Source: Flavobacteriales bacterium (GTDB taxonomy: Bacteria > Bacteroidota > Bacteroidia > Flavobacteriales_D > Parvicellaceae). Taken from it: 64,000 bases of DNA. Every line of letters starts with the position of its first letter. The first letter of the stretch is position 1. A model generated the notes under the pieces. The model saw nothing but the letters and a program-made list of their open reading frames with translations, had not been told where the DNA came from and ran no database searches. The translations under genes were made by a program, and so were the position numbers. Shown here piece after piece: positions 50,128 through 62,648 of this stretch. The DNA lies in assembly GCA_025210295.1 (NCBI GenBank), contig JAOASC010000045.1, positions 1-64,000 on the forward strand. Reading direction: 5' to 3'.

Positions 50128-50481
50128 ATGTATAGAATTGGATTGTTGTTGGGTGCAATACTATTTTTGGGAAGTTGTACCAAAGAGAAAGCATTAGAGT
50201 ATATTCCTGATGATTGTGGTGAAGTTAGTTATTCAGCGCAAATAGCACCGTTGATCCAACAATCTTGCGCAACAAATTTAGGCCCTGGCACAGGTTGTCA
50301 TGATGCTTGGATATTGGAGTATGAAAACCTTGCCGCTCCAATAGATAATGGAACATTTTGGAGTACAATTGAAACAGGCTATATGCCTAAAATCCCTAAT
50401 TCTTTTGGAATAGAAGAGTTAACGGAGGATGAAAAAGAGTTGTTTAGGTGTTGGATAAAGCAAGGAGCCCTCAATAATTAG
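50128..50481 (+). CDS. small lipoprotein with cytochrome-c-like CXnCH motif
   Basis: The ATG at 50128 (the second codon after a TTG) gives the signal MYRIGLLLGAILFLGSC with lipobox C17. Inside, C-x9-C-H (CATNLGPGTGCHDAW) replaces the usual CxxCH haem site. The rest is PLIQQSCA before it and YMPKIPNSFGIEELTEDEKE after it, as in the small haem-like domains of Bacteroidota and Planctomycetes. Whether haem is bound is unclear. Its TAG overlaps the hutI stop on the other strand by 4 nt. Confidence 0.75.
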   Translation: MYRIGLLLGAILFLGSCTKEKALEYIPDDCGEVSYSAQIAPLIQQSCATNLGPGTGCHDAWILEYENLAAPIDNGTFWSTIETGYMPKIPNSFGIEELTEDEKELFRCWIKQGALNN

Positions 50482-51725
50482 AGGACTTCTTCTCCATTTA
50501 AAAAGATGCGACTAATTTTATTGTTTCCAAAATAGTAAGGTAAAATAGCCATACTTTCAATAGGTTCGGTAATGAAAAAATTGGCTTTTTTACCAATCGT
50601 AATACTACCTAATTCGGAGCTTACTTCCATAGCATGAGCGCTATTAATCGTAGCAGCGTTGATTGCTTCTTCTGGAGTTAACTTCATTTTTATACAAGCT
50701 AAGGACACCACAAAATTCATATTTCCAGATGGAGTAGAACCAGGGTTGTAATCTGTTGCTAATGCTATGGGTAGGTTAGCATTAATCAAATCCCTGGCAG
50801 GAGCATAAGGAATACTTAAGAAAAATGAGCAAGAAGGTAATAATGTAGGTATAGTTGAACTCTTACCCAAATCATGGATATCTTCAGCTGTCATTACTTC
50901 TAAGTGATCCACAGATAAGGCTTGGTTAGCAATACCAGTTTGAAGTCCGCCGATAGAAGTGAATTGATTAACATGAATTTTAGGTTTTAAACCGATAGCA
51001 ATTCCAGCTTTTAAAATAAGATCTGTTTCTTCTGGAGTATAATAATTTGTCTCACAGAAAACATCTATAAAGTCAGCAAGGTTTTCTTTTTGAATAATTG
51101 GTAGCATCTCTTCGATGATTAAGCGAATGTAGTCACTTCTATTTTCTTTGTAAGCTGTAGGTATAGCGTGAGCTCCTAAGAAAGTTGCTTTAATCGTTAA
51201 ATTGGAAGCTTGTTTTAGTTTTTTGATGACCCTTAGAGATTTTAATTCGCCTTCTAAACTCAGCCCATATCCACTTTTGATTTCAACAGCACCAGTTCCT
51301 AGTTTTTCAATTTCTTTGATTCGCAATAAAGCATCATTAAAAAGCTCAGCTTCGTCTTTTTCAGAAAGTTTTTTGGCAGAATTAAGTATTCCACCGCCTT
51401 TCAAAGCAATCTCCTCATAAGTTAGGCCATTGATGCGATCTACAAATTCTGATTCTCGAGATTTTGCAAAAACTAAATGGGTGTGAGAATCACACCAACT
51501 AGGAAATAACATGCCATTTTTAGCATCTAGTACATTAGTTTGATCAGATTCTTGGAATGTTAGGTCTTCCATTTTCCCGTAATCAGCAATGATTCCATCA
51601 GTGATTTTCAAATAGGCACTATCAATACTTACTATGTTTTTTAATTCTTCTCCTTTTAAAAATCTTTTGTCTTGGGGTAAAATCCCGTTAAGTTGTTTGA
51701 TATTAGTGATGTAAGTCGTGCTCAT
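50478..51725 (-). CDS. hutI: imidazolonepropionase
   Basis: This amidohydrolase opens the imidazolone ring in histidine breakdown (imidazolonepropionate to formiminoglutamate). Metal ligands H81 and H83 are in CDSHTHLVFA. Other family marks are ALKGGGIL, SGYGLSLEGELKSLRVI, HVNQFTSIGG (third His) and LATDYNPGSTPSGNM. At 415 residues it is typical. No other hut gene is present here. It converges with the lipoprotein gene, the two stop codons overlapping by 4 nt, with no terminator between them. Confidence 0.94.
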   Translation of the reverse strand: MSTTYITNIKQLNGILPQDKRFLKGEELKNIVSIDSAYLKITDGIIADYGKMEDLTFQESDQTNVLDAKNGMLFPSWCDSHTHLVFAKSRESEFVDRINGLTYEEIALKGGGILNSAKKLSEKDEAELFNDALLRIKEIEKLGTGAVEIKSGYGLSLEGELKSLRVIKKLKQASNLTIKATFLGAHAIPTAYKENRSDYIRLIIEEMLPIIQKENLADFIDVFCETNYYTPEETDLILKAGIAIGLKPKIHVNQFTSIGGLQTGIANQALSVDHLEVMTAEDIHDLGKSSTIPTLLPSCSFFLSIPYAPARDLINANLPIALATDYNPGSTPSGNMNFVVSLACIKMKLTPEEAINAATINSAHAMEVSSELGSITIGKKANFFITEPIESMAILPYYFGNNKISRIFLNGEEVL

Positions 51726-51832: not shown

Positions 51833-51840
51833 TATTTTTG
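51833..51840 (+). promoter_or_regulatory. -7 box of the siaC gene, near-leaderless
   Basis: TATTTTTG stands 5 nt before the ATG at 51846 and 2 nt before the ATG at 51843. A TTG-initiated longer frame from 51828 would begin upstream of this box. No TTTG at -33. Confidence 0.6.
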
Positions 51841-51845
51841 TAATG

Positions 51846-52223
51846 ATGGAAAATTTAAGTATTGAGAAGACAATAAAAACTCCAAAAATATTTTTTGATT
51901 ATCAAAAAGGAGAATTGTTAATAGAGGGGATTTCTATTCCAGAAAACACAGTAGATTTTTATAAGGATGTGCTTAAATGGGTAGAAAGTTATCAAGAAAA
52001 TCCTAAACCAAAAACGGAATTAGTCTTAAAACTAGAATATTTTAATACAAGTACATCTGTCGTCTTATTAAATATTTTCAAACTTTTTAGTCAAATTCAA
52101 AATTCGGATTTAAAGATTGTCTGGTTTTATGAAGAAGATGATGTAGAAATGGAAGAAGTGGGAGAGGATTATCAGAATATTGTAAAGATCCCTTTTGAGT
52201 TAGTTTCTATTGAAAGTTTTTAA
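51846..52223 (+). CDS. SiaC-family regulatory phosphoprotein (DUF1987)
   Basis: A 125-residue cytosolic protein counted from the second of two adjacent ATGs (51843, 51846). The DUF1987 core has TPKIFFDYQKGELLIEG near the start. The motif EYFNTSTS has its Thr at residue 68, which corresponds to the phosphorylated Thr68 reported for Pseudomonas SiaC. SiaC is set free by a PP2C phosphatase (SiaA) and rephosphorylated by the kinase SiaB. No siaB-like gene is seen here, but a SpoIIE phosphatase lies 7 kb downstream on the same strand. The following giant adhesin gene starts 58 nt after its stop. Confidence 0.85.
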   Translation: MENLSIEKTIKTPKIFFDYQKGELLIEGISIPENTVDFYKDVLKWVESYQENPKPKTELVLKLEYFNTSTSVVLLNIFKLFSQIQNSDLKIVWFYEEDDVEMEEVGEDYQNIVKIPFELVSIESF

Positions 52224-52231
52224 GGAAATCA

Positions 52232-52264
52232 TTTGTTAAAAATTAGTTAATCCGTTTATCTTTT
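52232..52264 (+). promoter_or_regulatory. possible promoter of the CHU_C adhesin operon
   Basis: TTTG at 52232-52235, 21 nt, then TATCTTTT at 52257-52264, one mismatch from the -7 consensus. The leader to the ATG at 52282 would be about 14 nt. Confidence 0.45.
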
Positions 52265-52281
52265 CATAAATTTATCAAACT

Positions 52282-55200
52282 ATGAAGAGGTTTTTTGTTT
52301 TTGCCATATTTTATCTTTTGATTTGGTCCTCTGTTTATGCTCAGGGACAAATACATAGATGGGATTGGTATCAAGAAGCAGATTCTTCCAATTACCAAGT
52401 AGTACATGATATTGCGATTGATTCAGCAAGGAATTGTGTATATGCAGTTGGTGGTTTTGAGGATGATTTATCCAGTAATTTTGGGGGAGTTTCCGCAAGA
52501 GGAGGAAAAGATGGTTTTGTTGCGAAGTTTAATTTGCAAGGAAACTTGATTTGGTCATTCGGGATTGGTGGTCCTGGGAGTGAAGATGAAGAGGTGTTGA
52601 GTATTGACGTAGATCCAACTGATGGGAGTATATATATAGGGGGGTATGCAGGAAATCATTATATCAATTTTAGAGGTACAGGTTCTGGAAGCGGAGGGAC
52701 AAGCGTTGCTCAAGTTTGGGGAGGTACAGATGCTTTTATAGCTGCTTATCGAGGAGATGGCCGACTTAAGTGGGCTCAACGAGATGGAAGTACCAGTGAT
52801 GATGTTTGTAATGATGTTGTTGTTGATCCTTCTTCCAATGGCGTGGCATATACAGGAAGCTTTATTAGTGTGATGGAGTTGAATACTGAAAATCTTAATA
52901 TGGGAGATAGTGATGGAGATGAACACCTATTTATAGCTAAAAGAAAGAAAAGTAATGGAGATGGAATTTGGAGGGGGTATTCCCGTTCTCAGGGCGGTGA
53001 TTTTCAAAGGGGAATTGGGCTAACCAGAGATGCTAATTATCTATATCTTTTAGGAGAATATAATGGAGATGCAACCAATGGGTTAAGGCTAGTTATTGAA
53101 GAAATAACAGGGAATTATCCCATAATAGGAGGTACGGTCAATATCTATGGTGGTAGATATACATCTTCGTTGTTAATTGACCCGAGTATGTCTACTCAAA
53201 GTATCTTTTATGCAAGGGTAAAAGATAGTGATGGAGAGATAGAGGCTTCAAATTCATGGTTGTATAATATTTATAGTGATGGAACGGATTATGCAGGTGA
53301 TATCGCATATAGGAGTAATAATTTATTCATTAGTGGTAGTGTAGGTAATAATGCGTTTTTTAAAGGGCTTTCGAATAATCCCAACATTGTTGGAAATGAG
53401 TGTTTTGTTTCAAAACATAGTGTGAGTTCAGGGGATGCTATAAATAAAGTAGATGAGCCTAATTTAACAGCTTCTTTTGCAATCATGAATACCATTAGTT
53501 TTAACAGTAATTATGTTATTGTTGGAGGAGGAACTGATGGAACCATTCGATTTGATGGAAATGCTAACAATGATTTGGTGCCGCCAAATGGCAGAGATGA
53601 AGGTTTTGTTGTTTTTTATGATCAAAACTTAAACTTTGTTGAAAGACAAAAAGTGAGTGGAAATGGAACGAATGAGGTGAATGCAGTATCAGGTTGGAGA
53701 AAACATGCATTTGTTGGTGGAGCTTTTGGAGGTACAGCCAATTTAGATGATGATGGAACAATGACAGGACAAGATGATGAGTCTGGCTTTGTTAGTCTCT
53801 TAAAGCATCGAGATTGTACCCCTCAATTTGGATATGGAATGGATAGTGTGTGTCAAGAATCTCCTGTATTGACAGTTAGCTATAACGATCCCGTTGGAGT
53901 ATTCTCTCAAATAGGAAATGGTTTAACACTTGATTCACAAACAGGAGAAATTGATCCGTTTAGCAGTGTCGGTAACTCTAATAATCAAATCGTATATACG
54001 ACTTTTATAGGGTGTTCTGATACAGTAGCGTTACATATAGAAGGAAGCACAAGTCCTAGTTTTAATAATCCACCAATTAATGATACTGTTTATACTGATA
54101 ATGGGGTTTGTGGGACGAACTATGCATACCCTAGTTTAGAAGCTGTTCCCGATTGTGGAGAGGATACAATATTTCAAATAGATGGTTCTAATCTGACATC
54201 AGGGAGTTTCTTTCAAATGGGATCTACCTTACAATCTTGGGTGGTTGCTGATTATTATAATCCTAACGATACTGCCAATTTTATCATTACAGTGGTTGAT
54301 AATATTGAACCAGAAATTAGCTTTAGCGATGATACGGTATATTTTTATGCAGATGCCAATTCTTGTGAGGCTATTGTGGATGTAGAATCCCTGTTGGTGT
54401 TCACCGATAATTGTAATATTGATACCGTATTACAAGTTGGAGATTTAACATATTTGAATGGTACAAGCTTTAGTGTTAGAGATGCAGCATATAAACTAAC
54501 TTATAAAGTGCTAGATGCTTCCAATAATTCAGACTCTGCTTCAATAATTGTTTATGTAAGGGATACCATAAATCCTGTTATTAATAATTGTATTGCTACA
54601 GATACTACGGTCTATTTAACTGCTAATGAATGTGAAAAGGAAATGTTATTTAGTAATATCTCAGCTACTGATGCATGTGGGATTGATAATACTTCTTGGG
54701 TCCCTCAGTCAACAATGTTTTCGGTAGGAACTACAGCTGTTACTTATACAGCAACTGATGTGAATCAACGAGTGTCTACTTGTTCTTTTAATGTAATTGT
54801 TGTAGATAATGCACCGCCAGAAATTTATAATTGTATAGCTACTGATACGACAGTATATTTAACAGCAAGTGAATGTGAAAAAGAAGTGTTGTTTAATAAT
54901 ATTACAACTTATGATCCATGTGGCCCAACAACAAATACTTGGCAAGGGGTTCCTGCAAATAACTTATTTCCATTGGATACAACAGAAGTAACTTATATCG
55001 TTGTTGGAGGGAATCAGGATTCTTCAACTTGTACTTTTGATGTCATCATCATAGATACGTTGTCGCCTACTTTTGATAACTGCTTTTCTGATACTACTAT
55101 ATATGCGAATATGGGAGAGTGTAGTCAAGTGTTTAATACCCCAGATTTAGGAGTCAATGAATATTGTGGGTTGAGTGGAGGAGCTTTAATGCAAATAGAT

Positions 55201-56298
55201 ACAAGTGGTTATGAATCAGGCGATGAATTTCCTGTGGGAAGTGTATTGTTAGTTTATCAAGCCACTGATTTAAGTAATAATGTCGCAACTTGTAGTTTAA
55301 CTGTTGAGGTACAAGAAGTCCCAGATCAAACAGCTTTTAATGTAACAACTCCTGTTGGTTTATGTTTAAATGGAGACACTATAATTCAATTAGATGAATG
55401 TTTAAATTTAAACAGTAATCATGGTGGGGATTTTTATGTGAATGGAACATTGACTTCAGCTGATTACCAACCAAGTGCGCAAGGCACTGAGGATGTAATT
55501 ACATATATCTATGGGACTGGAGCTTGCATTGATACAATAGAGCATGTTATTGCATTACATCAACTCACTGCTAATGCAGGTGAAGAAGACTCAATTTGTG
55601 GATTATCTTATGAGTTAGCAGCTATTCCAGGAGGGAATACGCAAACCAATTATTGGATGGGAGAGAGTGCGGTCTCATTTAGTAACAACCAACATAATGC
55701 AAATGTTACAGTAAGTGAAGGAGGGGTTTATTATTTTTATTGGGTTGCTCAACAAGATCAATGTGTTGTTAGCGATTCTGTACAAATAATATTTTACCAA
55801 CAACCTACAGCAGATGCAGGTGAAAATCAAGTAGTGGAAATCAATGAGGTAGATTTAGATGCAAGGCTAGATTATGGTGTCGGAACTTGGATTGTAGATG
55901 AGTCAGAAGGAATGATAGAAGATTCAACATTGTATAATAGCCATGTAGATGATCTAAATTTAGGGTTAAATACTTTCATTTGGGTGGTAACCAATGGGGT
56001 TTGCCCGTCAGATTCGGCAACAGTTAGAATTTTTTATGATATGTTGACAATCCCTAATGCATTTACACCTAATGGAGATGGAGTCAATGACGAGTTTAGA
56101 ATAAAAGGGTTTGAATTGTATTCAGATGCTAAAATAACAATAATGGATAGATGGGGAGAGGTTCTTTTTATTACTGATGAATCCAATGAGGCCTGGAATG
56201 GAACTTATGAAGGTAAGGACGTAGTGGAAGATACTTATTTTTATATTCTTTATATCAATGAAAAAGAATATACAGGCTATATAGAGCTGAGAAGGTAG
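52282..56298 (+). CDS. giant surface protein with HYR repeats and type B (CHU_C) T9SS domain
   Basis: A 1338-residue exported protein. The signal peptide ends at SVYAQ (residue 21). The N-terminal half is a SBBP-like propeller (repeats such as GGKDGFVAKFNLQGNLIWS, PTDGSIYIGGYAGN, residues about 30-515). The middle carries HYR-type beta repeats rich in Cys, Asp and Thr (about 590-1015). Then come an Ig-like region and the gliding-motility-associated C-terminal domain (IPNAFTPNGDGVNDEF to IELRR, residues about 1256-1338), the type B T9SS signal. Proteins of this kind are mounted by a partner PorP/SprF, and the next gene is exactly that, starting on the stop codon. No enzyme motif is visible, so adhesion is inferred. 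Confidence 0.93.
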   Translation: MKRFFVFAIFYLLIWSSVYAQGQIHRWDWYQEADSSNYQVVHDIAIDSARNCVYAVGGFEDDLSSNFGGVSARGGKDGFVAKFNLQGNLIWSFGIGGPGSEDEEVLSIDVDPTDGSIYIGGYAGNHYINFRGTGSGSGGTSVAQVWGGTDAFIAAYRGDGRLKWAQRDGSTSDDVCNDVVVDPSSNGVAYTGSFISVMELNTENLNMGDSDGDEHLFIAKRKKSNGDGIWRGYSRSQGGDFQRGIGLTRDANYLYLLGEYNGDATNGLRLVIEEITGNYPIIGGTVNIYGGRYTSSLLIDPSMSTQSIFYARVKDSDGEIEASNSWLYNIYSDGTDYAGDIAYRSNNLFISGSVGNNAFFKGLSNNPNIVGNECFVSKHSVSSGDAINKVDEPNLTASFAIMNTISFNSNYVIVGGGTDGTIRFDGNANNDLVPPNGRDEGFVVFYDQNLNFVERQKVSGNGTNEVNAVSGWRKHAFVGGAFGGTANLDDDGTMTGQDDESGFVSLLKHRDCTPQFGYGMDSVCQESPVLTVSYNDPVGVFSQIGNGLTLDSQTGEIDPFSSVGNSNNQIVYTTFIGCSDTVALHIEGSTSPSFNNPPINDTVYTDNGVCGTNYAYPSLEAVPDCGEDTIFQIDGSNLTSGSFFQMGSTLQSWVVADYYNPNDTANFIITVVDNIEPEISFSDDTVYFYADANSCEAIVDVESLLVFTDNCNIDTVLQVGDLTYLNGTSFSVRDAAYKLTYKVLDASNNSDSASIIVYVRDTINPVINNCIATDTTVYLTANECEKEMLFSNISATDACGIDNTSWVPQSTMFSVGTTAVTYTATDVNQRVSTCSFNVIVVDNAPPEIYNCIATDTTVYLTASECEKEVLFNNITTYDPCGPTTNTWQGVPANNLFPLDTTEVTYIVVGGNQDSSTCTFDVIIIDTLSPTFDNCFSDTTIYANMGECSQVFNTPDLGVNEYCGLSGGALMQIDTSGYESGDEFPVGSVLLVYQATDLSNNVATCSLTVEVQEVPDQTAFNVTTPVGLCLNGDTIIQLDECLNLNSNHGGDFYVNGTLTSADYQPSAQGTEDVITYIYGTGACIDTIEHVIALHQLTANAGEEDSICGLSYELAAIPGGNTQTNYWMGESAVSFSNNQHNANVTVSEGGVYYFYWVAQQDQCVVSDSVQIIFYQQPTADAGENQVVEINEVDLDARLDYGVGTWIVDESEGMIEDSTLYNSHVDDLNLGLNTFIWVVTNGVCPSDSATVRIFYDMLTIPNAFTPNGDGVNDEFRIKGFELYSDAKITIMDRWGEVLFITDESNEAWNGTYEGKDVVEDTYFYILYINEKEYTGYIELRR
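54586..55071 (+). repeat. tandem HYR repeats, 243-bp period
   Basis: The segment coding NCIATDTTVYLTANECEKE (54586) recurs 243 bp later as NCIATDTTVYLTASECEKE (54829), an 81-codon unit. A third, more diverged unit begins near 55078 with NCFSDTTIYANMGECSQ. The first two are close at DNA level, pointing to recent duplication. Confidence 0.75.
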
Positions 56299-57185
56299 TG
56301 AAGGTAATCAAACAACATATAGTCTTTTGGGTGTTAATACTTTCTTTTCAAGGTATATATAGTCAGTATTTGCCTTTGATGAATGGTTACTTTAAAACAA
56401 ATCAATTTATCAATCCTGCTTCAGCTGGGGTAAATGATCATATGGTTGCTTATACTGGGATTCGAAAACAATGGGTAAGGATAAAAGGAGCTCCATCTAC
56501 TCAAATGTTTGCATTTGATAGTCCATTAACAAAACAAAGAATAGGGTTAGGAGGGGTGTTTTATCGAGATAAAGTAGGAGCTACAGTAACCAATGGTTTG
56601 CAGTTTAATTATTCTTATAGAATCAGAGTCTCGAGGAAAATGCGTTTAGCTTTTGGGGCAGATGCAGGGCTTGAAACAAGTAGGTTTAATGTGAATGAAC
56701 TTGAATTAATAGATGCAGCTGATCAAACGTTTGCTGATGAATATAGTCGAGTGAATAAACTAAAGTTGGGAGCAGGAGTAATGTTGTATGATAAAAAAAT
56801 AACCATTGGATTGTCAATGAATGATGCTGTAAAGTCCTCAGGTTTTGGAAATTTAATCGCTTACTTACAATACAAAAAGAAAGTGAATAGAGAGTGGAGT
56901 TATACTCCGGGAATTTTGGTGAAAATGAATACTTTATTAATAAAACAAGCAGAGTTTTCCGTATTAACTTCGTATAAGCAACAATTTTCCTTAAATTTGG
57001 GGCTTAGAACAAATGGCAGCATTCTTGCAGGTGTAGGATTTAACCCAACTAGCCAATTGTTGGTTTTATATAGTTACGACTATATTGCTGGGAGATTAAG
57101 AAGTTACACATCTGGTTCTCACGAACTAACGTTAAAATATGATTTTGTACAAAAATATAAAACATCGTCTCATAGATCCTTTTAA
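56298..57185 (+). CDS. PorP/SprF-family outer-membrane protein
   Basis: An outer-membrane barrel that anchors type B cargo. The start is a GTG that overlaps the TAG of the adhesin gene (TAGTG). The signal peptide ends near GIYSQ (residue 22). The family mark NQFINPASAGVNDHMVAYTGIRKQWV follows at about residues 35-61, with FDSPL, LGGVFYRDKVGATVT and YDYIAGRLRSYTSGSHELTLKY. At 295 residues it is normal. SprF in Flavobacterium is needed to secrete its neighbouring giant adhesin SprB. By the same logic it should serve the protein encoded just upstream. Confidence 0.92.
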   Translation: MKVIKQHIVFWVLILSFQGIYSQYLPLMNGYFKTNQFINPASAGVNDHMVAYTGIRKQWVRIKGAPSTQMFAFDSPLTKQRIGLGGVFYRDKVGATVTNGLQFNYSYRIRVSRKMRLAFGADAGLETSRFNVNELELIDAADQTFADEYSRVNKLKLGAGVMLYDKKITIGLSMNDAVKSSGFGNLIAYLQYKKKVNREWSYTPGILVKMNTLLIKQAEFSVLTSYKQQFSLNLGLRTNGSILAGVGFNPTSQLLVLYSYDYIAGRLRSYTSGSHELTLKYDFVQKYKTSSHRSF

Positions 57186-58536
57186 GGTATTGTTTGTATT
57201 GACTTTTGTATTTAGTCTCAATAATTATTTTTCACAAAAAATTTCTATAAAACAGGTCAAAGTCAATGATTTTGAAGAGTCCTCTTTTGCTCCTTTTGTA
57301 AAAGATGGATGGCTTTATTTTTCATCTAATAAAAAAAGGTCATCATTAACCTCTATTCAAACAGAAGATGGAGAGTTATTCTTTGATCTTTATAAAGCTG
57401 AGATTAAAGAGCAAAATAAATTAAAAGCGAAGCACATTTCATTAGGAGATTCTGTCAATAGGATGTTTAATGAAACATCAAGTTGTATTCATGGGAATAC
57501 CCTCTATTTTTCATCCAATTCATTTGGAGAAGTTAAAAAGAAAAAAATCGGTAAATATGGTATTTTTCTTTATAATCTAGATTCTACCTCTAATCAGGCT
57601 ATCCAAGCTTTTAAATACAATGATAAACATTTTAACGTTGCTCATCCTACCATCAATGAAGATGGGACAATGTTGGTGTTTAGTTCTGATAATATTGCAG
57701 GAGAAGGAAAGTCCGATTTATATTTTTGTAAGTATGTAGACGGAGAATGGGCTACACCTCAAAATTTAGGAATTAATATCAATACCGAGGAAATGGAAAC
57801 TTTCCCAAGTTTACAAGGAAGAACCCTTTATTTTTCTTCTGATAGAAAAAATGGTAAAGGTGGGCTGGATATTTATGCTTCTATTTTTGATGGAAAATCT
57901 TGGTCTGTTCCCAAACTTTTGCCAGAGCCAATAAATACTAAGTATGATGACTTTGGTTATACGTTAAATCCTGACTTTAAGAGTGGTTATTTCTCATCAA
58001 ATCGAACCAAAAAAAGAGATGGGATTTTTTACTTTGAATACGATATTCCTGTAGTCAATGAATTTTACCAACAAGAACTGTATTTCTGTTATACTTTTGA
58101 AGAAACTGAAATGGAAGAAACAGATTCTCTCAAGTTTCAATGGGATTTAGGAGATGGTACTTTACAGAAAGGTAGATTAGCCGATCATTGTTTTTCTGAT
58201 ACAGGAACTTATAATATAGAAATGTCTGTTATTGATAAATATACTGGTACGATATTTGAAAATGTGTCATCATATCAAATTATCATTGATGCTCATAATC
58301 AGCCTGTAATTGATTTGGAAGATATAAAACCTGGAGTGGTAAAAGTTTTTGTGAATAAGAAATGGAGCAACCAACAATTTACAGACTATTACTGGATTGT
58401 AGATGGCGATTTTGTTTTTGCAGATGAATTAACTTTAAAGTTTAAGGATAAGTCAGAAATAAATGTTAAATTGGTGATTTGGGATAAAGAAAGCCCAGAA
58501 TCAGTAACAGGTGTTGAGCGAATAGTGTACAAATAA
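57139..58536 (+). CDS. PD40 propeller protein with PKD domain
   Basis: An exported 465-residue protein. The ATG at 57139 lies 47 nt inside the sprF gene. A TTG just after the sprF stop is an alternative start. The hydrophobic signal is FKVLFVLTFVFSLNNYFSQ. PD40 repeats cover about residues 50-300 (GWLYFSSNKKRSS, NEDGTMLVFSSDNIAGEGKSD, SSDRKNGKGGLDIY). A PKD domain follows (SLKFQWDLGDGTLQKG, about 320-385). This pairing is frequent next to SprF in Bacteroidota. It probably sits at the periplasmic face of the outer membrane. Function unknown. Confidence 0.85.
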   Translation: MILYKNIKHRLIDPFKVLFVLTFVFSLNNYFSQKISIKQVKVNDFEESSFAPFVKDGWLYFSSNKKRSSLTSIQTEDGELFFDLYKAEIKEQNKLKAKHISLGDSVNRMFNETSSCIHGNTLYFSSNSFGEVKKKKIGKYGIFLYNLDSTSNQAIQAFKYNDKHFNVAHPTINEDGTMLVFSSDNIAGEGKSDLYFCKYVDGEWATPQNLGININTEEMETFPSLQGRTLYFSSDRKNGKGGLDIYASIFDGKSWSVPKLLPEPINTKYDDFGYTLNPDFKSGYFSSNRTKKRDGIFYFEYDIPVVNEFYQQELYFCYTFEETEMEETDSLKFQWDLGDGTLQKGRLADHCFSDTGTYNIEMSVIDKYTGTIFENVSSYQIIIDAHNQPVIDLEDIKPGVVKVFVNKKWSNQQFTDYYWIVDGDFVFADELTLKFKDKSEINVKLVIWDKESPESVTGVERIVYK

Positions 58537-58543
58537 ATTGGAA

Positions 58544-59500
58544 ATGAGAAAATTAAATTTACTTATTATTTTTGTGGTTATAACGCTTTTAGAAGCTTAT
58601 GCTCAGCCAGTACCAGCAGCAGAAGAAAATATCCCTTTTTTAGTGACTTTCGGAAATAAAGCTAAAACGTCATACGGCGATGATGATTTTAGACAAATAT
58701 TTTATTTTTCAATTCCAAAAGACTATAGAAAGCCTTTTTACATTAGAATATTTGATCCCAATATAGGAGGTGAACATGATGAAATTATTGGAGATCCTAA
58801 TACGAAAACAAAATACTCCGTATATGGAGGAAAAGGGTGTATTTCCAACCGAAATCAAAGAAGTGGAGCTCATGGTAACTTATTAGGTAGCAAAACTTTT
58901 GATTCAAAGTTAACTTATGATGATAAGTGGTATACGTTTGGACCCTTTAACCCATCTCAAGGGGAATACGTTGCCAAATATTATGGAAACGTTTTTAAGA
59001 TTATCGCTCAAGGAACTGAGGGGAATGATGGGAATCTTTACCGTTATTACCTTAGTACATCTCCAACGAAGAATACACCTATTGATGGTGGGAATGCTTT
59101 TACTTTTTTCTACACCTTTAGATTACATGCAGATGCTAATCAAGTCTCACACATTTATCCTTATGTCGATAATGAAGTAATTTCAATTACACAAACCAAT
59201 TTTGATTGGGATAGCGATGGATCGATAAAATTGTATTCTGTAGCTACAATGGCCAAAAGTTTAGCAGTATCAGCAGATGATAAATCTGCTTCTAGTGAGT
59301 ATTTTGTGAAAAAATCGGAAAAAGGAACATCGTTAGATATCCAGTTTCAAAAGCGGAAAACCAATACGTTAGACAACAATAATGTAGTCTTTTATATCAG
59401 GAATAATTACGGAGAAGCAATGCCTTTCTATACCGTTCCTATAGGGGGAGTTCCTAAATTTAAAGGAAATACTAAGGTTACGGTTCAACGGAGAAGATAA
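58544..59500 (+). CDS. exported protein of unknown function in the SprF cluster
   Basis: The ATG at 58544 is used; a TTG two codons earlier is possible. The signal peptide ends at EAYAQ (residue about 23). The remaining 295 residues are beta-rich, with SYGDDDFRQIFYFSIPKDY, FYIRIFDPNIGGEHDE, RSGAHGNLLGSKTFDS and YIRNNYGEAMPFYTVPIGG. No named domain is recognised. It lies 7 nt after the PD40/PKD stop and 1 nt before the phosphatase gene, so all five genes from 52282 form one transcription unit. Confidence 0.7.
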   Translation: MRKLNLLIIFVVITLLEAYAQPVPAAEENIPFLVTFGNKAKTSYGDDDFRQIFYFSIPKDYRKPFYIRIFDPNIGGEHDEIIGDPNTKTKYSVYGGKGCISNRNQRSGAHGNLLGSKTFDSKLTYDDKWYTFGPFNPSQGEYVAKYYGNVFKIIAQGTEGNDGNLYRYYLSTSPTKNTPIDGGNAFTFFYTFRLHADANQVSHIYPYVDNEVISITQTNFDWDSDGSIKLYSVATMAKSLAVSADDKSASSEYFVKKSEKGTSLDIQFQKRKTNTLDNNNVVFYIRNNYGEAMPFYTVPIGGVPKFKGNTKVTVQRRR

Positions 59501-59501
59501 A

Positions 59502-62500
59502 ATGAAAAAGAGACTATTATTCTATATTCTTATACTAATTAAATTTGCTGGTTTTTCTCAAGAGTACAAATTTAATTCTTATGGTCAGGAGCAAGGGCTT
59601 ACTGACCTGTTTATTTATACAATAGATCAGGCAGATAATGGATACTTAATGGTAGGAACCAGTCAAGGAATTGGTTTCTATGATGGAGGACACTTCGAAA
59701 TGAAAACCACTGAAGATAATTTAGTAGATAATCAAATCAGTGCCAGTTTTAAGGATTCTAAAGGAGCCATTTGGTATGGACATACACAAGGAGGAGTCAG
59801 TAAATATATCAATGAAGAGTTTGAAGTCGTTCATCCAGGTGAAGGCATTAACTCTATGATCAATGGTATTCAAGAAGACAGTAAAGGGAATATCTGGTTT
59901 TCCACACAACAATTTGGTTTATTTACCATTAATGAAAATAGGAAAACAGTATTTTTTAATGAAAAGTTTGAGGGGAGAAATATTACGACACTTTATATCG
60001 ATGAAAATGATTACTTGTTTGTTGGATTTGATGAAAAACTGGAGGTGTATCGCTTTGTAGATGGTAAAAAAGGAAAAGTACTCAGTAAAATTCAAAACAT
60101 CAATGATCTAGAGGGGCAGGTCAATAAGATTATACCTTTAGAAAATGGAAGGATGATTGTTGCCACACGTTCAGGACTGTATGCTGTTGATCAAAAAGAA
60201 AAAATATTTGTTGTTACACCAATTAAAATTTCAAACCTAGAAGAAGAGTTGAATATCAAAGATATCTATATCAATTCAGGAAGACTGTGGATAAGTACCT
60301 ATGGAAGTGGTGTTTTAAGAACTATTTTAACAAATAATAATTGTTTTGTTTCAGAAATTTATACCAACCAAAATGGTTTAAAAGGAGATGATAATATTGA
60401 AATTACTTTTATTGATAGAGAAGGTGTACTTTGGTTAGGAACGGCTGGAGATGGACTTTTTTCTAAAGAAGATAATTTATTTACGTTTTACTTTAGAGAC
60501 AAGGTTGAAGAAAACGAAATTAAATATTTGGATGTAACCGATACTGAAGTGTGGGTTGCTCAAAATGATGGCTTAAACTGTTATGACAAGCAGTATGGAA
60601 AGTTGAAATATCAATTTAATTCAGAAAATAGCGGATTACCTCAAGGAAATATTTTGTGTTTTAATTTTGTAAAGGACTCCATTATATTAGTAGGATTTGA
60701 AACTTTAGGGCTTTACTATAAATTTGTTGACCAGGAGCAGTTCTATAAGTTTGACCTCTCAGATGATGTCTTGTCAAGGCAAGTTACCGCTATTGCTGTA
60801 GGAGAAAATTATGTATGGGTTGGGACGCAAAATGGTGTCTTTAGAGTGAGTATAGCAGATAGAGAAATCAAAAGCTTTAGCATGGGGGATGGATTGTCCC
60901 ATAATTCAATTCAAAGCTTATTGGTTGGTCAAAATAACGAACTTTATATTGGTTCAAAAAGCGCATTCTTAAATATCATAGAAGAAGATGAGGTCTTTAA
61001 AATTCCTTTTAGAATCAGTGAAGAAGAAGAGTTTGTTTCGGTGAGTGTCTCAAAAATAATAGAAAGTAATAGCGGTAATATCTGGATCAGTACACATGGT
61101 CAGGGAATATTTTGTTTTGCAGATACCATTATTAAACATTACGATACCAGAGATGGGCTTTTTAGTAACTATTGTTATGGAGTAGCTTATGATGATAAGG
61201 GAAAAATATGGGTAAGTCACGATGGTGGTTTAAGTAGCATTGATTTGAATGCAGATAAAGTGGATGTTTATAATAAAAGGTATGGTTTAAATACCCGATT
61301 TTCAGTGTCAGCAATTGATTTCTTAGCTAATGAAGTTTGGTTTGGAACCCAAAATGGTGTGGTGCGTTACAATTCAAAAGAGGCATTGAAAAATAGTATG
61401 CCTCCAATTACTTCTTTTAGTCAAGTCGTGATTAATGATGATGTCATGGCTGGTATAATTCGCGATACAATGCTGCCTTTTAATGAACACGATTTAGAAT
61501 TTCATTATAAGGGGATAAGTTTAAAAAATTCACTGGGACTAAAGTATAAATGCATTCTGGAAGGTTATGACGATGATTGGTCAGAATTTACTGAAGATAA
61601 AGTAAGAAAGTATACCAAAGTAAGAGAGGGAAATTATGTTTTTAAGGTAAAATCATTTAACGATGATGGAGTAGAGGGGAATATGGAGATGATCGCCGTG
61701 TCTATTGCCGTGCCTTACTATAAAAAATGGTGGTTTTATCCAGCGTTGTTGTTGATCATTGTTTCCATTGTTGTTTTTATTGTTAAGTATAGAGAAAGGC
61801 AACACTTAAACTATATGAATACGCTTTCAAATGAGTTGGAGTTGAGAACGGCTGAGTTAGTAGACCAAAAGGAAAAAATGGAAGAAATCAATAAAGATTT
61901 AACCGATAGTATTAACTATGCTCAACGTATTCAATCAGCAATTCTTCCCGAAGATGACTTTGTAAAAGAGTTGTTCCCCAATAGTTTTGTATTGTTTAAG
62001 CCAAGAGATATTGTAAGTGGAGATTTCTATTGGATTAGAGAATACTTTGGGAAAAAGATTGTCGTCTTTGCAGACTGTACAGGACATGGAGTTCCAGGAG
62101 GATTTATGAGTATGATTGGAAGAATCCTATTAAGAGAAACCTGTACCGTAAAAAACCTTAGAGATCCGGGAGTAATCTTGGAAGAAATAGATAAAGGATT
62201 GGTGAATGTATTAAAACAAACAGATGATATCGACTCCAACAAAGATGGAATGGACCTGGGAGTTTGTGTCATAGATTCTAGAACCAACATGTTGTCGTAT
62301 GCAGGTGCCATGAGACCGTTATATGTCTATAGAGATGGAGTTAGAAAAGTGTTAAAAGGAAATAGACATTCAGTAGGAGGAATTTCACAAACAAAAAAAA
62401 TATTTGATGCACAAAATTTCCAATTAGAAGCAGGAGATACCTTGTATATGTTTAGCGATGGCTTCCCAGATCAATTTGGAGGAAGCAAAGGGCGTAAAAT

Positions 62501-62648
62501 GAAAATTTCGGTATTGAATGAATTGTTGGACCAAGTATGTCAAATGCCTTTTGAACAGCAAAAGGTAGAAATAGATACTTTCTTTGAAACATGGAAGAGA
62601 GGTGAGCCGCAGATGGATGATGTTTTAATGATAGGGCTTAAAGTATGA
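59502..62648 (+). CDS. transmembrane sensor phosphatase: periplasmic propeller, Y_Y_Y and SpoIIE
   Basis: The 1048-residue protein has a signal peptide (MKKRLLFYILILIKFAGFSQ). Two-component-regulator propeller repeats follow (about 25-650, with GNIWFSTQQFGLF, GVLWLGTAGDGLF, YVWVGTQNGVF). A Y_Y_Y domain lies near 665-735, one membrane helix near 741-762 and a coiled coil near 765-815. The cytosolic C terminus is a SpoIIE PP2C phosphatase (about 820-1048). Its metal-binding Asps are in SGDFYW, FADCTGHGVPGGF, MDLG and FSDGFPDQ. It should read an outside signal and dephosphorylate an inside protein of anti-sigma-antagonist or SiaC type. It ends the SprF cluster; mutS2 overlaps its stop by 4 nt. 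Confidence 0.9.
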   Translation: MKKRLLFYILILIKFAGFSQEYKFNSYGQEQGLTDLFIYTIDQADNGYLMVGTSQGIGFYDGGHFEMKTTEDNLVDNQISASFKDSKGAIWYGHTQGGVSKYINEEFEVVHPGEGINSMINGIQEDSKGNIWFSTQQFGLFTINENRKTVFFNEKFEGRNITTLYIDENDYLFVGFDEKLEVYRFVDGKKGKVLSKIQNINDLEGQVNKIIPLENGRMIVATRSGLYAVDQKEKIFVVTPIKISNLEEELNIKDIYINSGRLWISTYGSGVLRTILTNNNCFVSEIYTNQNGLKGDDNIEITFIDREGVLWLGTAGDGLFSKEDNLFTFYFRDKVEENEIKYLDVTDTEVWVAQNDGLNCYDKQYGKLKYQFNSENSGLPQGNILCFNFVKDSIILVGFETLGLYYKFVDQEQFYKFDLSDDVLSRQVTAIAVGENYVWVGTQNGVFRVSIADREIKSFSMGDGLSHNSIQSLLVGQNNELYIGSKSAFLNIIEEDEVFKIPFRISEEEEFVSVSVSKIIESNSGNIWISTHGQGIFCFADTIIKHYDTRDGLFSNYCYGVAYDDKGKIWVSHDGGLSSIDLNADKVDVYNKRYGLNTRFSVSAIDFLANEVWFGTQNGVVRYNSKEALKNSMPPITSFSQVVINDDVMAGIIRDTMLPFNEHDLEFHYKGISLKNSLGLKYKCILEGYDDDWSEFTEDKVRKYTKVREGNYVFKVKSFNDDGVEGNMEMIAVSIAVPYYKKWWFYPALLLIIVSIVVFIVKYRERQHLNYMNTLSNELELRTAELVDQKEKMEEINKDLTDSINYAQRIQSAILPEDDFVKELFPNSFVLFKPRDIVSGDFYWIREYFGKKIVVFADCTGHGVPGGFMSMIGRILLRETCTVKNLRDPGVILEEIDKGLVNVLKQTDDIDSNKDGMDLGVCVIDSRTNMLSYAGAMRPLYVYRDGVRKVLKGNRHSVGGISQTKKIFDAQNFQLEAGDTLYMFSDGFPDQFGGSKGRKMKISVLNELLDQVCQMPFEQQKVEIDTFFETWKRGEPQMDDVLMIGLKV

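Follow-up and report, generated by a model that had tools for sequence, protein, structure and literature searches.

A SiaC-type phosphoprotein linked to a propeller-SpoIIE phosphatase and a type IX secretion surface operon: a probable partner switch in Flavobacteriales

The window analyzed here, a stretch of 64,000 nucleotides, belongs to contig C45 (JAOASC010000045.1) of a 4.2 Mb Flavobacteriales genome (G000; 48 contigs, 95% complete). It carries siaC, encoding a DUF1987 phosphoprotein, followed on the same strand by five genes for a CHU_C surface protein, a PorP/SprF-family protein, a PD40/PKD protein, Unk320 (as we call an exported protein whose family has no name) and a propeller-SpoIIE sensor phosphatase (Table 1). 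We regard these genes as probably encoding a partner switch of the SiaABC type, in which the phosphatase would sense a surface complex of the type IX secretion system (T9SS). The link between SiaC and the phosphatase is well supported by comparative genomics; we further infer an enzyme-substrate pair, a sensed signal, a kinase and an effector. Only a single system with SiaC has been worked out, and there the protein serves as activator of a diguanylate cyclase. In SiaABCD of Pseudomonas aeruginosa, SiaA is a PP2C phosphatase, SiaB a kinase, SiaC the phosphoprotein and SiaD the diguanylate cyclase.

Conserved linkage of siaC and the sensor phosphatase

Within the window genome alone, a distance of approximately 7 kb between siaC and one of about 36 SpoIIE genes is unremarkable. 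The linkage is significant because the order is conserved in other genera, in a second family and in other families of the Bacteroidia. The order SiaC-CHU_C-SprF-PD40-Unk320-SpoIIE is kept in the genus of the window (g1; G005 and G002, with G003 and G006 cut by contig ends) as well as in genera g8 (G013, G020) and g7 (G019, and G012 split over two contigs); many of the assemblies are fragmented metagenome bins. The CHU_C and SprF genes were lost from the operon in G026, and genus g2 (G007, G015, G022) lost all four middle genes and retains hutI-siaC-SpoIIE with siaC and the phosphatase gene 125-140 bp apart. In genus g50 from another family (G114, G168, G166, G367), genes for a histidine kinase, receivers, a SiaC of the same type as in the window (V-type, see below), a second SiaC, CHU_C, SprF, PD40, Unk320 and SpoIIE lie together in an order that differs among the four genomes; a third siaC is inserted between the Unk320 and SpoIIE genes of G166. 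Moreover, G016 harbors a second operon with its own siaC 42 bp behind the SpoIIE gene.

The case for regarding the propeller-SpoIIE protein as a SiaA equivalent rests most strongly on the repeated appearance of siaC at such operons. Among 36 loci from other Bacteroidia families, in which Unk320 is followed by a propeller-SpoIIE gene and the downstream sequence is readable, siaC lies directly behind SpoIIE at eight (7 genera, at least 5 families), five of them with the pair siaB-siaC. Even with the highest siaC content observed, 13 in 2500 genes, the chance probability of this count is approximately 3e-9. In the Unk320 tree, operons linked to siaC are found in three distinct regions, which indicates from the phylogeny that siaC repeatedly joined, or stayed in, Unk320-SpoIIE operons at either end.

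Presence and absence patterns agree with this picture. A tree built from 56 SiaC sequences places the protein of the window in a clade (support 100/96; V-type hereafter) from genera g1, g2, g3, g7 and g8 of its own family plus one SiaC of G114, and a V-type profile searched over 399 genomes of the order found members only in these five genera and g50. Across 39 genomes of the family, V-type siaC and the phosphatase orthologue occur together in 16, the phosphatase alone in 3, siaC alone in none and neither in 20 (Fisher's exact test, 2.6e-8 by genome and 0.008 by genus); the three phosphatase-only genomes (G001, G004, G025) are all fragmented assemblies, and the single-contig genome G008 has both genes, unlinked. 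In five family genomes, 6 of 32 siaC genes have a SpoIIE gene no more than 1 kb away versus 0.5 expected, two of these pairs being orthologous so that about four cases are independent, and 9 of 32 have one within 10 kb versus 4.7 expected. The proposal of the earlier note that SiaC and the propeller-SpoIIE protein belong together is supported by the order kept in several genera and a second family, and by SiaC or SiaB-SiaC downstream of the phosphatase in further families; the possibility it had raised itself, that the two loci never co-occur in relatives, clearly does not hold.

Several observations weigh against the proposed pairing. In genus g3, siaC remains at hutI and PD40-Unk320-SpoIIE is located elsewhere. 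Many such operons lack an adjoining siaC, among them the five-gene operon of families f9 and f2 and a paralogue on contig C28 of the window genome; in 12 other-family genomes with a siaC-free operon, no V-type siaC was found elsewhere. With about 36 phosphatases in the genome cross-talk is possible, and the window SpoIIE domain ranks third in SiaA-likeness among 30 SpoIIE domains of the genome (133.6 bits, range 82-141), for which reason this likeness was dropped as specific evidence. The SiaA residues F612 and R652, which were modelled to contact SiaC (PMC7647112), correspond to R and M in the window phosphatase. Furthermore, siaC is perhaps a separate transcript, as suggested by a terminator-like sequence behind it in G003 and by a conserved AT-rich element ahead of the CHU_C gene; promoter and terminator scans gave results no better than shuffled sequence. 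Linkage and co-occurrence fall short of proof of an enzyme-substrate pair.

It might be asked whether the gene order was simply inherited without function, with SiaC acting on the hutI side or alone and the phosphatase on another target. The hutI gene (50478-51725) is divergent from siaC in the window, and this divergence is retained in g1, g2, g3 and g8, including g3 with its operon moved away, which together with a possible own promoter of siaC speaks for such an explanation. However, hutI is not beside siaC in g7 and g50 although the operon is present there, further families independently received siaC or siaB-siaC on the opposite side of the operon, the co-occurrence holds even where the genes are unlinked (g3), and g2 kept SiaC and SpoIIE together despite the loss of the middle genes. 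We consider a functionless gene order unlikely.

Table 1. Positions of the genes, domains and residues of the siaC-phosphatase locus in the window.
Feature	Position	Strand	Evidence
siaC, 126 aa	51843..52223	+	PF09345 match, PDB 6k4f match, AlphaFold2 model, tree
Thr equivalent to SiaC T68, in EYFNTS, codon ACA	52047..52049	+	alignment, AlphaFold2 model
Val at T68+4, codon GTC	52059..52061	+	alignment
Type-B T9SS surface protein, 1338 aa, HYR repeats and CHU_C/TIGR04131 C-terminal domain, putative adhesin	52282..56298	+	domain matches
PorP/SprF-family outer-membrane shuttle/anchor, no Cys	56298..57185	+	TIGR03519 180.1 bits, cut-off 90.55
PorE-like periplasmic protein, PD40 propeller and PKD, no OmpA domain	57139..58536	+	domain matches
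Unk320, 320-aa exported protein, unnamed family	58544..59500	+	family alignment, neighbourhoods
Propeller (periplasmic)-Y_Y_Y-transmembrane-SpoIIE/PP2C phosphatase, 1048 aa, proposed SiaA equivalent	59502..62648	+	domain matches
Y_Y_Y domain, residues 680-736	61539..61709	+	domain match
Single predicted transmembrane helix, residues 743-761	61728..61784	+	hydropathy maximum
SpoIIE/PP2C domain, residues 853-1047	62058..62642	+	domain match; SiaA metal and catalytic Asp present

The phosphatase and its likely sensing partner

The SpoIIE domain of the window protein together with the preceding linker matches the structure of P. aeruginosa SiaA (6k4e) with an E-value of 8e-39, and aspartate is found at every position equivalent to D457, D474, D534, D600, D604 and D653 of SiaA, as in an intact PP2C/SpoIIE phosphatase. 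Against the SiaA equivalog model NF038263 the protein reached 190.4 bits, below the cut-off of 700, the match covering only the C-terminal linker and PP2C part. The periplasmic propeller and Y_Y_Y fold resemble those of hybrid two-component sensors of the BT4663 type (4a2l, E-value 4e-45), from which the window protein differs in having a SpoIIE phosphatase instead of a histidine kinase as output. In G007, the propeller-SpoIIE gene (L114 9264-12426) is broken close to the SpoIIE domain and reads as two frames that overlap, owing to either a frameshift or an assembly error.

Unk320 is matched by no Pfam or NCBIfam model. It is highly conserved and exported; copies from different families are about 40-76% identical to that of the window, and its profile was detected in 49 of 395 genomes of the class, mostly directly upstream of a propeller sensor. 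On contig C26 of the window genome, a sister locus (L253 9110-12766) has the order PD40-Unk320-propeller, and its propeller protein carries a terminal histidine kinase with receiver domains in place of SpoIIE; because Unk320 precedes a propeller hybrid histidine kinase there, the neighbourhoods indicate that it goes with the propeller and not with SpoIIE. CHU_C and SprF genes also lie near the C26 locus. Hence, Unk320 and the propeller may form a sensing pair, the input of which would be the surface complex or its ligand. An AlphaFold2 model of Unk320 built from two sequences only had a predicted local distance difference test score (pLDDT) of 38.

The surface genes and the question of motility

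The surface protein of the operon is of type B with a TIGR04131/CHU_C match of 73.4 bits (cut-off 35), and the PorP/SprF gene lies downstream of its gene. Type-B C-terminal domain (CTD) proteins require a cognate PorP/SprF partner (PMC12618676), and complexes of PorE, PorP and a type-B protein have been demonstrated biochemically (PMC9143113). The similarity of the PD40/PKD protein to PorE is weak, and the OmpA peptidoglycan-binding domain of PorE is missing in the window and in G020; orthologues in genus g7 and in other families keep it, the domain being present in G019, G039 and G072. The succession of a type-B CTD protein, its anchor of the PorP/SprF kind and a propeller protein resembling PorE is shared with the type-B surface complex PorE-PorP-PG1035 of Porphyromonas gingivalis and with the PorE/SprF/type-B operons known in Flavobacterium johnsoniae; the window genes differ from these in the addition of Unk320 and a transmembrane propeller phosphatase and in the loss of the OmpA domain.

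The earlier note had gone further and suggested that SiaC, itself under the control of a signal read by the propeller, governs adhesion or motility linked to the CHU_C protein; in full, SiaC would after its dephosphorylation act on adhesion or gliding by way of CHU_C. In favor of this idea, the genes share a locus, and SiaC of P. aeruginosa controls aggregation via SiaD (PMC7647112, PMC8457831). However, a route via SiaD is closed, because no GGDEF domain was found in the window genome at its completeness of 95%, so that SiaD cannot be the target of SiaC here and an output via cyclic di-GMP (c-di-GMP) was rejected. The gliding-type SprF needs a C-terminal CxC tail (PMC12635249), while the window SprF contains no cysteine at all and CxC is absent from the last 25-30 residues of every operon SprF inspected; in addition, a PorE-like gene follows sprF, and operons with such a gene have been proposed to encode static adhesins (PMC12618676). 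Judged from these sequence features, a surface complex that is static and anchored is the most likely product of the operon, with motility an improbable output, and the link to gliding was rejected. Moreover, cytoplasmic SiaC would be unable to touch a surface protein directly, and genus g2 retains SiaC and SpoIIE without any surface genes. Control of adhesion or gliding by SiaC is thus quite unlikely, and the anatomy of the locus fits equally well or better with the opposite direction, in which the adhesin complex is the thing sensed.

SiaC and its presumed kinase

The window SiaC is a clear member of its family (PF09345, 123.5 bits, E-value 4.7e-36, cut-off 24.5; P. aeruginosa SiaC, PDB 6k4f, E-value 9e-15). 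Its AlphaFold2 model (pLDDT 94) has P. aeruginosa SiaC as the best fold match, with template modelling scores of 0.86-0.90 to SiaC structures, and places the T68-equivalent threonine as the first residue of helix alpha2 (68-82), the position of the acceptor likewise reported for SiaC (PMC7647112). Since the score against the SiaC equivalog of the biofilm system (NF038265) was 80.1 bits and thereby below the cut-off of 150, the protein appears to be a relative of the biofilm SiaC and not the same orthologue. In the alignment of operon-linked SiaC proteins the acceptor position is occupied by Thr or Ser.

A kinase gene is missing from the locus. As the earlier note had stated, the window contains no siaB, and the search for siaB (DUF6272) in the remaining genome that it called for yielded four genes on contigs C16, C46, C41 and C24, each adjoining another siaC. 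In total, the genome encodes seven SiaC and four SiaB proteins besides its SpoIIE phosphatases, and thus has an extensive network of phospho-switches while lacking c-di-GMP synthesis. Among RsbW-like kinases, which might serve as alternative SiaC kinases, one full-length candidate was found on contig C33, away from the window locus. A screen for effector candidates beside the remaining six siaC of the genome found nothing recurrent save housekeeping genes such as that for cytidylate kinase.

No siaB lies beside a V-type siaC at any locus of the clade seen. All 20 V-type proteins have Thr or Ser at the T68 position and Val at T68+4, whereas SiaB-linked SiaC proteins show Lys or Arg at T68+4 in 43 of 46 rows and Ile in 3, these rows not being independent; the loss of the conserved lysine may mark a changed contact with the kinase or the effector. 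Both the missing siaB and the valine would also be explained if V-type SiaC were bound to the SpoIIE domain in the cytoplasm as a scaffold or as a regulator, which might for instance set the activity of the domain, instead of being its dephosphorylation substrate, since no kinase would then be needed, but this is very unlikely, because the retention of Thr or Ser in all 20 members, unlike in a separate clade with Ile (see below), indicates that phosphorylation is probably still used, and four SiaB proteins are encoded in the genome.

Proposed mechanism and significance

Taking the partner switch as the preferred explanation, the T9SS would export the CHU_C protein, which the SprF-like and PorE-like proteins would then anchor at the outer membrane. 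The state of this complex, or a ligand at it, would be read by Unk320 together with the propeller in the periplasm, and the cytoplasmic SpoIIE domain would dephosphorylate SiaC at the T68-equivalent threonine, whereupon unphosphorylated SiaC could bind an effector other than SiaD. In the lineage of the window siaB was presumably lost from the locus, so that SiaC would have to be phosphorylated by one of the four SiaB proteins in trans or by another kinase. Whether this represents a more general outside-in module of Bacteroidia, in which an anchored T9SS adhesin complex, Unk320 and the propeller-SpoIIE protein report to SiaC, and of which the branch studied here dropped SiaB and the SiaC lysine and uses an output other than c-di-GMP, appears to us evenly balanced.

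Compared with SiaABCD, the window system has the same SiaC fold and T68 acceptor, a membrane phosphatase that agrees with SiaA in linker and PP2C core, and a joint coding of phosphatase and SiaC, elsewhere in Bacteroidia also with SiaB in the same type of operon. It differs in the two-component-type propeller sensor with Y_Y_Y, in the T9SS adhesin operon that separates siaC from the phosphatase gene, in the lack of a local siaB and of GGDEF proteins, and in the replacement of SiaC K72 by V in its clade and of the modelled SiaA contacts F612 and R652. In the open-access literature searched, no paper linking SiaC (DUF1987) to the T9SS or to Bacteroidota was found; the matches for SiaC with Bacteroidetes include an unrelated Capnocytophaga sialidase named SiaC. 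The SiaC switch seems to recur, tied to T9SS surface proteins, in bacteria without c-di-GMP enzymes, none of which are present in the window genome. If the proposed switch is true, it would provide a candidate pathway for the monitoring of surface adhesins by the Bacteroidia that carry them, and the conserved Unk320 family would gain both a partner and a role. It would also supply a natural case of SiaC working without a neighbouring SiaB, and a clear place to seek a non-GGDEF effector of SiaC.

Further observations on the locus

The gene layout given in the earlier note, a DUF1987/SiaC gene with EYFNTS before a five-gene unit ending in propeller-SpoIIE, was accurate except for the exact start of siaC, which is the ATG at 51843 or the in-frame ATG at 51846 and not position 51833. 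Models of defence systems gave no matches. Behind the phosphatase gene, mutS2 begins at position 62645 and overlaps the SpoIIE stop codon, so that the transcript may run on past the SpoIIE gene; mutS2 also lies directly behind the phosphatase gene in G004 and G006, not in G005 and G001. In G166 (L217 1-13938) and G168 (L216), two or three siaC genes, a hybrid histidine kinase and receivers surround the same T9SS-sensor operon. Finally, a separate SiaC clade has Ile at the T68 position (EYFNISSSK, DYFNIVSSK) and hence no phospho-acceptor. Its member in the window genome (contig C33, L103 9775-10167) has orthologues in G001, G007, G008, G082 and G114, adjoins a thiE-like gene and lies about 4 kb from an RsbW-like HATPase.

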